In this document: positions 8,064 through 11,400 of the stretch, one piece after another
How positions within the stretch are numbered: position 1 is the first letter of the stretch
How the letters are laid out: each line of letters opens with the position of its first letter
Assembly (NCBI GenBank): GCA_028691615.1
Contig: JAQUYX010000002.1
Coordinates: forward strand, 1-55,158
From: Victivallaceae bacterium
Lineage (GTDB): Bacteria; Verrucomicrobiota; Lentisphaeria; Victivallales; Victivallaceae
DNA length: 55,158 nucleotides
Direction: 5' to 3'
Translations under genes and position numbers: made by a program
The notes under the pieces: generated by a model
The model's input: the letters and a program-made list of their open reading frames with translations, nothing else
Database searches by the model: none
Told to the model about the DNA's origin: nothing

Positions 8064-9338
8064 TCAGACGCGGGAAAGCGCCTGCTCGAAATCAGCGATG
8101 ATGTCGACAATGTCTTCCAAACCGACCGAAACCCGGATCAGGTCCGGCGCGACGCCGGCCGCGGTCAACTCCGCGTCGGAGAGCTGCCGGTGGGTGGTCG
8201 AAGCCGGATGCAATGCGCAGGTGCGCAGATCCGCCACATGCACGGCAATCGCCGCAAGTTTCAACGAATTGAGCACGGTTTTGCCCGCCTCCTTGCCGCC
8301 CTTGACGCCGAAGGAGAGCACGCCGGAACCGCCCCGCAGATATTTTTTGGCCAGTTCGTATTGGCTGTCGCCGGGCAGGAACGGATATTTGACGTAGCCG
8401 ACCTTGGGATGTTTTGCGAGGTATTCGGCCAGCGCGAGCGCGTTCTGACAATGCCGGGGCATCCGCAGATGCAACGTCTCCACGCCCATCTGGGTCAAAA
8501 ACGCATTAAAGGGCGACATCGGCACTCCGAGATCGCGAATCCATTGGGCGCGCATCTTCGCGGAGAAGGGCGACGCGGCAAAATTTTTCGTATAAATCAA
8601 CCCGTGATAGCTCTCGTCCGGCTCGGTAAATTCCGGGAATTTGCCCGAACTCCAGTCGAAATCCCCCTTCTCGACAACCACTCCGCCGACACTTGTGGCA
8701 TGCCCGTCCAGATACTTTGTGCTGGAATGCGTCACGATCGCCGCGCCGAATTCAAACGGATTGCAGAGAAACGGCGACGGGAAGGTGTTGTCGACAATCA
8801 GCGGCACGCGAATCTGGTTGGCGGCGGCGGCGAACTCTTCCAGATCGGCGACCACGAGGGCCGGATTGGAGAGTGTTTCGGTAAAGATGGCCCGGGTGTT
8901 GTCCCGGCAGGCGGCCAAGACAGTTTCCCGCTTTGCCGCAGGAGGCACGAAGGAGACTTCGACGCCCATCTTTTTGAGCGTATTGCCGAAGAGCGCGGTC
9001 GTGCCGCCGTAAAGTCCGGCCGAAGCGACCACATGCCCGCCGCAAGTACAGACATTCAGAATGGCCAGCGCGCTGGCGGTCTGACCGGAGCTGACCGCCA
9101 CGGCGGCCACGCCGCCTTCGAGTGCGGCAATCTTCTTTTCGAGCACCTCGACAGTGGGGTTGGCGAGGCGGGAATAGAAGAATCCGGGGGTCTTCAGATC
9201 GAAAAGATCGGCGACGCTCTGCGCGTCGTCGTATTTAAACGTGGTGCTCTGAACGATCGGAGTAATACGGGGAGCGCCGTTGCCGGGAGTGTATCCGGTC
9301 TGCACGGCGCGGGTTGCGAACTGCCATTTTTCATCCAT
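8064..9338 (-). CDS. metY: O-acetylhomoserine (thiol)-lyase, Cys/Met PLP enzyme
   Basis: About 424 residues, the usual size for O-acetylhomoserine sulfhydrylase, with the long inserts that separate it from MetB/MetC. It makes homocysteine from O-acetylhomoserine and sulfide using pyridoxal phosphate. The PLP lysine lies in THSSTKYLDGH; SSGQTASALA and VDNTFPSPFLCNPFEFGA are also family hallmarks. Upstream AAGGAG lies 11 bases before the ATG at 9338; an in-frame TTG at 9344, five bases after AAGGAG, is an equally possible start. Divergent from the hydG leader. I see no SAM riboswitch of a known class in the leader of about 70 bases. Confidence 0.93.
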   Translation of the reverse strand: MDEKWQFATRAVQTGYTPGNGAPRITPIVQSTTFKYDDAQSVADLFDLKTPGFFYSRLANPTVEVLEKKIAALEGGVAAVAVSSGQTASALAILNVCTCGGHVVASAGLYGGTTALFGNTLKKMGVEVSFVPPAAKRETVLAACRDNTRAIFTETLSNPALVVADLEEFAAAANQIRVPLIVDNTFPSPFLCNPFEFGAAIVTHSSTKYLDGHATSVGGVVVEKGDFDWSSGKFPEFTEPDESYHGLIYTKNFAASPFSAKMRAQWIRDLGVPMSPFNAFLTQMGVETLHLRMPRHCQNALALAEYLAKHPKVGYVKYPFLPGDSQYELAKKYLRGGSGVLSFGVKGGKEAGKTVLNSLKLAAIAVHVADLRTCALHPASTTHRQLSDAELTAAGVAPDLIRVSVGLEDIVDIIADFEQALSRV

Positions 9339-9415
9339 GATCAATCAAACTCCTTAAAGATTACAGTGATCCCGAACGCCATTGGTTCCGGCGCGATAGT
9401 CAGGTTTCAAAACTT

Positions 9416-9453: not shown

Positions 9454-9482
9454 TTGACTTTGCGCGGCAATGCGTTTATATT
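9454..9482 (+). promoter_or_regulatory. promoter of the leader RNA and the TM1266-hydG pair
   Basis: TTGACT (9454-9459) and TATATT (9477-9482) are 17 bases apart. Transcription should start near 9489, about 228 bases before the first gene, leaving room for the structured leader. Confidence 0.75.
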
Positions 9483-9488
9483 ATTACA

Positions 9489-9669
9489 ATGACTTTGGTA
9501 CTGAGTACGAGGGGCTGCGAGTGTTTTTATGCGCGGCGCCCGAGGGCGAAGGCCGGACGAAAGATGGAAAAGAAGAAGTGTCCCGACAGGCCGGATGGCC
9601 GAACGGGGAACTTTTGGGAAGAAATCGTCTTTTGATTCGCATGCCCCAGCTTCGGGCATGCTTTTTTTT
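9489..9669 (+). ncRNA. structured leader RNA with terminator, candidate attenuator or riboswitch
   Basis: Between the promoter and the TM1266-type gene lies about 180 bases ending in an intrinsic terminator. Visible helices include GTAC-TGA-GTAC (near 9498-9508), CGCCC-GA-GGGCG (near 9536-9547), and GGCC-GGAC with GTCC-CGACA-GGCC (about 9551-9594). The 5' segment GGGGCTGCGA (9511-9520) can pair with TTCGCATGCCCC (9636-9647), which is the 5' arm of the terminator, so the two pairings exclude each other. It matches no riboswitch class I know. A frame from ATG 9489 to TGA 9635 could encode a 48-residue basic peptide but would be leaderless; I prefer a non-coding reading. Confidence 0.6.
9639..9669 (+). 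terminator. intrinsic terminator in the leader upstream of hydG pair
   Basis: GCATGCCC (9639-9646) and GGGCATGC (9654-9661) form a perfect eight-pair stem with a seven-base loop, followed by eight T (9662-9669). It stands between promoter and first gene, so it must be conditional or leaky for the downstream genes to be expressed. Confidence 0.85.
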
Positions 9670-9716: not shown

Positions 9717-9965
9717 ATGCCGGAAAACCGAATTGCGCTTCTTGGAATCATCGTTGAAGATCCCTCGTCCGCTGAGGCGATCAACAAATTTCTGCACGAA
9801 GCCGGCGAATACATCGTCGGCCGCATGGGAATTCCGTATCGTTCTCGCAAGCTCGGAATCATCAGCGTCGTGCTCGATGCGCCGCAGGATTTTGTCAGCG
9901 CGCTCTCCGGCAAGCTGGGAATGCTTCCCGGCGTCAGCGTTAAAGCCGTTTATTCGAAACAATAA
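9717..9965 (+). CDS. TM1266-type iron-only hydrogenase system regulator, ACT-like
   Basis: An 82-residue protein with a single ACT/ferredoxin-like fold: RIALLGIIVED, VGRMGIPY, GIISVVLDAP and LPGVSVKAVYSK are the conserved segments of the small TM1266 family, which sits beside the hydE/hydG maturation genes in many anaerobes. Family members resemble NikR's ligand domain but lack a DNA-binding part, so how they regulate is unknown. GAAGGGAAAA precedes the ATG. It is 19 bases upstream of hydG and clearly cotranscribed with it. Confidence 0.85.
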   Translation: MPENRIALLGIIVEDPSSAEAINKFLHEAGEYIVGRMGIPYRSRKLGIISVVLDAPQDFVSALSGKLGMLPGVSVKAVYSKQ

Positions 9966-9984: not shown

Positions 9985-11400
9985 ATGTACAACGTAATGT
10001 CCCCTCATGCCGATGACTTCATCGACGACGGCGAAATCCGTCAGACCCTCCAATTCGCCGAAGAACACAAGTGCGACCGCGAACTCATCCGCTCGATTCT
10101 CGACAAGGCCGAGAATTGCAAGGGCGTTTCGCACCGCGAAGCGCTGGTTCTGCTCGACTGCGAACTGCCGGAGGAAAACCAGCGGATGTTCGAGCTTGCC
10201 CGCCGCATTAAACAGCGTTTTTACGGCAACCGGATCGTCATGTTCGCGCCGCTCTATTTGTCGAATTACTGCATCAACGGCTGCGTTTACTGCCCCTATC
10301 ACGCCAAGAACAAGACCATTCCGCGCAAAAAACTGACGCAGGAAGAGATCGTCAAAGAGGTGATCGCCCTGCAGGACATGGGCCACAAACGCCTTGCTTT
10401 GGAAACCGGCGAACACCCGACCATCAATCCGATCGAATATATTCTCGAAAGCATCCGCACGATTTATTCGATCAAGCACAAAAACGGCGCCATCCGGCGG
10501 GTCAACGTCAACATTGCCGCGACCACGGTCGAAAATTACCGCAAACTCAAGGACGCCGGCATCGGCACCTACATTCTTTTTCAGGAGACCTACAACCGCA
10601 AGAATTACGAAGCGCTCCATCCGACCGGCCCGAAGCATGATTACGCGTGGCACACTGAAGCGATGGACCGCGCCATGGAAGGCGGCATCGATGATGTCGG
10701 CTGCGGCGTTCTCTACGGATTGAGCACCTACCGCTACGATTTTGTCGGTCAGCTCATGCATGCCGAGCATCTGGAAGCGTACAAAGGCGTCGGCCCGCAT
10801 ACGATCAGCGTGCCGCGAATCCGTCCGGCGGACGACATCGACGCCTCGACCTTCCCCGATGCGATTTCCGACGATATGTTTGAAAAACTGGTGGCGGTGC
10901 TGCGCATTTCCGTGCCGTACACGGGCATCATCATTTCGACGCGCGAAAGTCAGAAGGCGCGGGAGCGGGTGTTGTCCGTCGGAGTCTCGCAGATCAGCGG
11001 CGGATCGCGCACCAGCGTCGGCGGGTACACCTCGCCGGAGCGTCACGACGAAACCGCGCAGTTCGATGTGAACGACACGCGTTCGCTCGATGAAGTCATC
11101 AACTGGCTGCTTTCGCTGGGCTATATTCCGAGTTTCTGCACCGCGTGCTACCGCGAAGGGCGCACCGGCGACCGCTTCATGCATCTGGTCAAATCCGGTC
11201 AGATCGCGAATTGCTGCCAGCCGAATGCGCTTATGACGCTGGAAGAGTATCTCTCGGATTACGCCTCGGAAGACACCCGCGCGAAGGGGGAGAAGGTGAT
11301 CGCCGCCGAGTTGGAACGCGTTCCCAACGAAAAAGTGCGCACCCTGGCCGGAGAGCACCTTGCCGAGATCCGGCAGGGAAAACGCGATTTCCGTTTCTAA
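9985..11400 (+). CDS. hydG: [FeFe] hydrogenase H-cluster radical SAM maturase HydG
   Basis: HydG splits tyrosine to p-cresol and dehydroglycine and delivers CO and cyanide for the diiron centre of [FeFe] hydrogenase. The 471-residue length is standard. The radical SAM cluster is bound by C-X3-C-X2-C in CINGCVYCPY, and the auxiliary cluster by CTAC plus a third Cys about 22 residues later (IANCCQ), which distinguishes HydG from the thiamine enzyme ThiH. ATG at 9985 follows GAAAGGA. The frame is open far upstream through the leader but that part has no homology. No hydE, hydF or hydrogenase gene is present in the window. Confidence 0.96.
   Translation: MYNVMSPHADDFIDDGEIRQTLQFAEEHKCDRELIRSILDKAENCKGVSHREALVLLDCELPEENQRMFELARRIKQRFYGNRIVMFAPLYLSNYCINGCVYCPYHAKNKTIPRKKLTQEEIVKEVIALQDMGHKRLALETGEHPTINPIEYILESIRTIYSIKHKNGAIRRVNVNIAATTVENYRKLKDAGIGTYILFQETYNRKNYEALHPTGPKHDYAWHTEAMDRAMEGGIDDVGCGVLYGLSTYRYDFVGQLMHAEHLEAYKGVGPHTISVPRIRPADDIDASTFPDAISDDMFEKLVAVLRISVPYTGIIISTRESQKARERVLSVGVSQISGGSRTSVGGYTSPERHDETAQFDVNDTRSLDEVINWLLSLGYIPSFCTACYREGRTGDRFMHLVKSGQIANCCQPNALMTLEEYLSDYASEDTRAKGEKVIAAELERVPNEKVRTLAGEHLAEIRQGKRDFRF

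Follow-up and report, generated by a model that had tools for sequence, protein, structure and literature searches.

Leader RNAs that decide between termination and read-through are known in several settings. In pyr operon attenuation, PyrR-binding leaders place a small hairpin with conserved loop bases upstream of a small regulator gene and its pathway, where it competes with an antiterminator ahead of an intrinsic terminator. Metabolite riboswitches such as the glycine and guanidine-II classes, which optionally occur in tandem, use a conserved aptamer core to make a similar terminator/antiterminator choice. A structured RNA before hydrogenase genes has also been described, namely the Moco RNA that precedes a hydrogenase cluster in Eubacterium limosum (PMC5651825). 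For the maturation of [FeFe]-hydrogenase, no published RNA-level control was found in the open-access literature searched.

The window analyzed here is a stretch of 55,158 nucleotides from a Victivallaceae bacterium (GCA_028691615.1, contig JAQUYX010000002.1). Relatives identified through HydG put this genome, by inference, within the Lentisphaeria and close to the Victivallis group. The window contains a TM1266-hydG gene pair preceded by the following elements:

9454 to 9482, + strand: near-consensus sigma-70-type promoter, TTGACT-N17-TATATT (10 of 12 positions in a consensus scan), which drives the leader
9489 to 9669, + strand: leader RNA, beginning at the inferred start site and including the whole T-run
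9557 to 9633, + strand: long intervening hairpin domain (predicted fold), not conserved in relatives
9639 to 9669, + strand: intrinsic terminator with a perfect 8-bp stem, a loop of 7 and T8
9717 to 9965, + strand: TM1266-family putative iron-only hydrogenase system regulator (PF21699, E 1e-30; TIGR03959; solved relative 2nzc)
9985 to 11400, + strand: hydG, the radical-SAM tyrosine lyase of H-cluster assembly (TIGR03955, 911.6 bits)

The promoter is the sole sigma-70-like site found on the + strand between 8500 and 13500, and the same scan predicted no second promoter between the terminator and hydG. The terminator reads GCATGCCC-CAGCTTC-GGGCATGC followed by T8 (hairpin at 9639 to 9661). In the 55-kb window a single perfect 8-bp stem runs into seven or more T, against zero in 20 shuffles (counting one strand in each), and the window holds no other terminator of such strength. 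The leader itself folds more stably than its shuffles (z −3.3). An attenuating leader is expected to have a promoter, a leader and an intrinsic terminator 5′ of the first gene, without a second predicted promoter, and all of this is met here. A preliminary description made from sequence alone had read the region as the layout of an attenuator or riboswitch, with a strong promoter at 9454 to 9482 and a perfect terminator at 9639 to 9669. Both elements held in the consensus scan and the sequence, the layout is supported, and the separate hydG promoter that would have undone this reading was not predicted. On the − strand, a second promoter-like site (9443 to 9416) drives a divergent gene for a PLP enzyme of Cys/Met metabolism (8064 to 9344, −), making the intergenic region two-way.

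TM1266, the first gene after the terminator, has 2nzc as its only clear solved relative, and no assigned function for it was found in the open-access literature searched. A weak match to the AsnC family (E 0.18) is compatible with an ACT/RAM-like ligand-binding fold, and proves nothing.

The comparison of the leader with Rfam 15 gave no match at gathering thresholds and none at E ≤ 10, which agrees with the preliminary description, whose author knew no class that it matched; an Rfam hit, which would have refuted that reading, is thus absent. Twenty further loci gave no match at the leader, and two members of the consensus described below (L096 and L062) gave only sub-threshold matches, those at permissive thresholds being chance. 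Leader RNAs of hydG, TM1266 or hydrogenase were also absent from the open-access literature searched, which did not cover supplements and non-open papers, and neither hydrogenase nor hydG appears in the main text of the 50-genome or the 26-genome ncRNA paper.

A BLASTn search for homologous leaders in 61 genomes (60 of them relatives) recovered only the leader itself, which indicates that any conservation is structural rather than of plain sequence. Upstream of TM1266 and hydG in Lentisphaeria and Firmicutes a recurring string was observed, with the consensus UCGUNCUGA-NNN-GAGGG-UUCGU-CCCGAGUGNGAAGGCG. A covariance model (R1) was built from 18 such leaders with the window copy excluded, and it recovered the window leader at 9493 to 9558 with 19.3 bits and an E-value of 0.011 (638 kb searched). 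This copy is also the top R1 match across the whole 3.1-Mb genome (E 0.055). These E-values are rough, given the short calibration, and weak on their own; what convinces, by inference, is the position of the match within the leader upstream of TM1266, the usual site of the family. A second model (R2, 35 sequences) scores the copy at 30.6 bits, which is not independent since the window was among its training sequences. The segment 9493 to 9558, unseen in the preliminary description and revealed only by comparison, is thus a divergent copy of a conserved RNA module of approximately 46 nucleotides. Its parts, as placed by R1, are:

9493 to 9558, + strand: conserved RNA module
9496 to 9498 with 9553 to 9555, + strand: stem P1
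9506 to 9508 with 9544 to 9546, + strand: outer part of stem P2, followed by a GA/GA internal loop
9511 to 9513 with 9539 to 9541, + strand: inner part of stem P2
9514 to 9538, + strand: enlarged hairpin loop

ACUGA and GAAGG are conserved around the junction between P1 and P2. The window copy has GG/CC in P1 where the consensus has CG/CG, a compensatory change, and carries one mismatch in P2 (A9507-G9545). Its loop enlargement is also seen in three other leaders (L003, L023 and L030). The free minimum-energy fold of the leader, computed without any model, includes the same module.

The pairing is supported by covariation across 58 aligned copies, in which standard pairs fill 90.5% of the pair cells and double changes occur in eight of the nine pairs. 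The covariation score is 0.415, compared with 0.159 for shuffled columns and no more than 0.100 for slid pairings. Since the covariance-model alignment was fitted to the structure, this score is favored by construction. A structure-blind ranking of all columns by mutual information nevertheless placed exactly the five variable stem pairs at the top (columns 20-63, 19-64, 6-71, 5-72 and 21-62). A conserved, covarying structured domain, as expected of a riboswitch, is therefore present, and the absence of covariation that would have refuted the earlier reading was not observed.

The distribution of the module was explored by running R2 on 640 whole genomes of the Lentisphaeria, the Clostridia and the Sporomusa class, rather than on hyd loci alone. 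Scans of more than 40 genomes used stricter filters, at which weak copies are lost, and an absence of the RNA is therefore not proof. Almost all strong matches lie directly upstream of TM1266. The RNA was found in 21 of 198 genomes of the Lentisphaeria class (directly upstream of TM1266 in 20 of the 21), in 31 of 291 Clostridia (29 of 30 examined matches) and in 20 of 151 genomes of the Sporomusa ovata class (19 of 22 matches). The three other matches in this last class are a weak one (L251), one beside a tRNA (L252) and one between TM1266 and hydG (L253, G547:C6). The latter is a weak copy of the motif that overlaps the hydG ribosome-binding site, and this overlap hints at possible translational control. 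Weak R1 matches within coding sequence (L148 to L156, L266 to L268, L207 and L251) were discarded as chance after reading.

The gene that follows TM1266 is hydG, hydE or hydF, and elsewhere an ABC transporter, a nitrogenase-like protein accompanied by HypF, or, in L260, a PocR histidine kinase. The RNA also precedes five hydE-hydG operons that contain no TM1266, and one genome (G118) has it both before hydE-hydG and before a TM1266-transporter operon. Some leaders contain tandem copies (L026, L030, G053 and G058). A looser pattern, drawn partly from the same sequences it was tested on, yields a probable second copy for 10 of the 56 leaders, compared with 0.3 in shuffles.

Several individual loci deserve mention. 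Two of them (L184 and L258) have the RNA and TM1266 at the start of an operon for an SsuA/NMT1-type ABC transporter, whose substrate may hint at the signal. At another (L259, G622:C4) they are followed by a protein that resembles a nitrogenase component, by HypF and, further on, by an open reading frame that looks like HypD, so that in this one genome the RNA is linked to maturation genes of the [NiFe] type. A second RNA copy in G108:C122 (L181/L220) precedes a truncated TM1266, of which only residues 4 to 37 were matched, apparently a decaying duplicate. Some Lentisphaeria (L007, L010, L013 and similar loci) have TM1266 without the RNA, with a promoter-like sequence apparently near the start codon and no terminator between; this suggests that the switch was gained or lost within the family.

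In 46 of 56 family leaders the module is followed by a hairpin with a T-run, and the module 3′ strand (AAGGCG and the bases after it) is complementary to the 5′ arm and loop of the terminator in the same leader. The duplex between a module and its own terminator has a mean of −15.8 kcal/mol, compared with −13.0 (standard deviation 0.42) when modules and terminators are re-dealt among leaders; none of 5000 permutations reached the mean of the true pairs. The module 5′ strand shows a smaller effect of this kind. Such pairings are visible by eye as AAGGCGGAA/UUCCGCCUU in one leader (L208) and as AAAGGCG/CGCCUUU in another (L203). Two strands of the window leader can act in this way:

9540 to 9567, + strand: antiterminator strand of the family type (module 3′ strand), pairing with 9625 to 9655 (duplex −25.7 kcal/mol)
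9507 to 9523, + strand: alternative antiterminator strand, pairing with 9634 to 9655 (duplex −22.8 kcal/mol), the predicted fold of a transcript ending at 9648

The alternative strand extends a pairing already given in the preliminary description, of GGGGCTGCGA (9511 to 9520) with TTCGCATGCCCC (9636 to 9647). These coordinates proved correct; the refinement is that the family antiterminator is mainly the module 3′ strand, alongside or instead of that segment. In transcripts of the window leader ending up to 9640 the module fold is predicted (−56.5), whereas at 9648 the antiterminator fold is preferred (−62.1). The full leader folds with module and terminator at −71.7, and at transcript end 9661 the antiterminator form reaches −71.1. 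These near-balanced folds indicate that the leader is poised and that stabilization of the module favors termination. The window by itself makes only a modest case, its complementarity exceeding shuffles with p 0.03 for a 15-nucleotide arm and 0.09 for the longer arm. The evidence for a mutually exclusive antiterminator, which is taken as found, thus rests on the family permutation test together with the window folds.

Sequence comparison shows that the module exists, that it covaries, that it is associated with particular genes and that it is complementary to the terminator. We are confident, whatever the effector, that these features define an attenuating leader of a new class, serving the maturation genes of [FeFe]-hydrogenase. 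That switching occurs in vivo, that the folded module is the OFF state and what the effector is are all inferred, no RNA or ligand experiment having been made. In the mechanism that we propose, the leader would be a transcription attenuator built on this module and controlling the maturase genes of the H-cluster. With the module (9493 to 9558) folded, the terminator would form and transcription would stop before TM1266; with the module unfolded, its strands would pair with the terminator 5′ arm and RNA polymerase would read into TM1266-hydG. TM1266, a small ACT/RAM-like protein perhaps with a ligand of its own, may bind the module and so feed back on maturase expression, by analogy with PyrR at pyr leaders.

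This statement as a whole, attenuator and TM1266 effector together, could as well be wrong as right, given that binding by TM1266 is inferred and no binding data exist. In its favor, TM1266 is the near-constant partner of the RNA while the maturase gene varies, and the regulator lies within the operon it would control, as in PyrR-type leaders, being the first gene after nearly all matches. The RNA is present in 23 of 61 hydG genomes that bear TM1266 and in 1 of 15 in which no TM1266 gene was found (Fisher p 0.03); in the other 14 the RNA was not found, and the weak matches there are intragenic. The single exception (G111) is a 2.5-Mb MAG, the other sampled genome of its genus measuring 6.8 Mb. 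The five TM1266-free hydE-hydG operons, which count against a TM1266 effector, belong to this genome and to four that encode TM1266 elsewhere. That genomes without TM1266 mostly lack the RNA leans toward binding, with no direct evidence of it. Also against it, many TM1266 genomes have no RNA, and the strongly conserved loop bases would be just as much in keeping with a ligand pocket. Lineage may account for the missing RNA where TM1266 is missing, shared regulation is also not excluded, and the first model seeds were taken upstream of TM1266.

The closest rival keeps the attenuator and makes it a true riboswitch whose direct ligand is a small molecule or a metal complex from H-cluster assembly, TM1266 being merely one of its targets. 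Candidate ligands include tyrosine, SAM, cysteine, iron and the Fe-CO-CN product of HydG. The unpaired conserved bases (CUGA, GAAGG and GA/GA) that flank short covarying stems, the optional tandem copies, the hydE-hydG leaders without TM1266, the genome with the RNA before both operon types and the transporter among the targets all speak for it. The near-constant TM1266 association, the failure to find the RNA in the 14 hydG genomes without this gene and the small size of the module for an aptamer speak against it. With no ligand-binding data we hold this reading a little short of an even chance and slightly favor TM1266, the metabolite riboswitch being nearly as likely and the choice undecided. 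A bolder version has a somewhat lower but still appreciable chance, in which a new metabolite riboswitch class is dedicated to H-cluster assembly and senses a maturation substrate or the Fe-CO-CN intermediate made by HydG. The signals first suggested for this leader (Fe-S state, tyrosine, SAM or hydrogen) likewise remain guesses without ligand data, and the TM1266 protein may be the effector instead.

Two further explanations leave the attenuator aside. The promoter-to-terminator unit of approximately 180 nucleotides could be a stand-alone small RNA, for example a 6S-like one, with its own terminator before TM1266 and separately promoted genes. We regard this as most improbable, given the lack of a predicted promoter between terminator and hydG, the lack of a match to 6S or other Rfam families, the tie of the module to TM1266 and hyd genes across classes, and the mutual adaptation of module and terminator. 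The 6S-like candidate was dropped; the 6S covariance model gave no match at the leader. Attenuation by a leader peptide or T-box can draw on an open reading frame that passes through the leader, and HydG uses tyrosine. It is less probable still, given the lack of a T-box match and a conserved signal made of RNA stems with variable-length loops, not codons.

The attenuator preferred here probably decides between an early stop and read-through into the genes that build the iron cofactor of the hydrogen-making enzyme. It extends over at least the Lentisphaeria, the Clostridia and the Sporomusa group, with anaerobes of the gut and acetogens among its carriers, and would thus matter for the tuning of hydrogen metabolism in these bacteria. 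RNA control and TM1266 function can both be assayed directly, with a short RNA whose termination is clearly read out and a protein that is small and can be purified. Should an H-cluster precursor turn out to be the ligand, the leader would serve an organometallic pathway as its RNA sensor.

Compared with known systems, the glnA/glutamine and NiCo (czcD) riboswitches superficially share strings with the module (AUCGUUC..., CUGA...AGG), but neither was matched in the Rfam scans of the window and the consensus members. The Eubacterium limosum RNA also precedes hydrogenase genes, but is a Moco-RNA motif, for which the present leaders have no match. With glycine and guanidine-II riboswitches these leaders share an aptamer-like conserved core, the terminator/antiterminator choice and some tandem arrangements, and differ in having no known ligand, no Rfam riboswitch match and a module of only ~46 nucleotides. 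The PyrR-binding leaders are alike in the small hairpin, its conserved loop bases, the place upstream of a small regulator gene and a pathway, and the competition with an antiterminator; they differ in sequence, fold and pathway, without an Rfam PyrR match at the gathering threshold, and protein binding is here only proposed. An unnamed listing elsewhere remains possible; novelty appears to lie in the RNA class and in its regulon, and the attenuation logic that they use is known.
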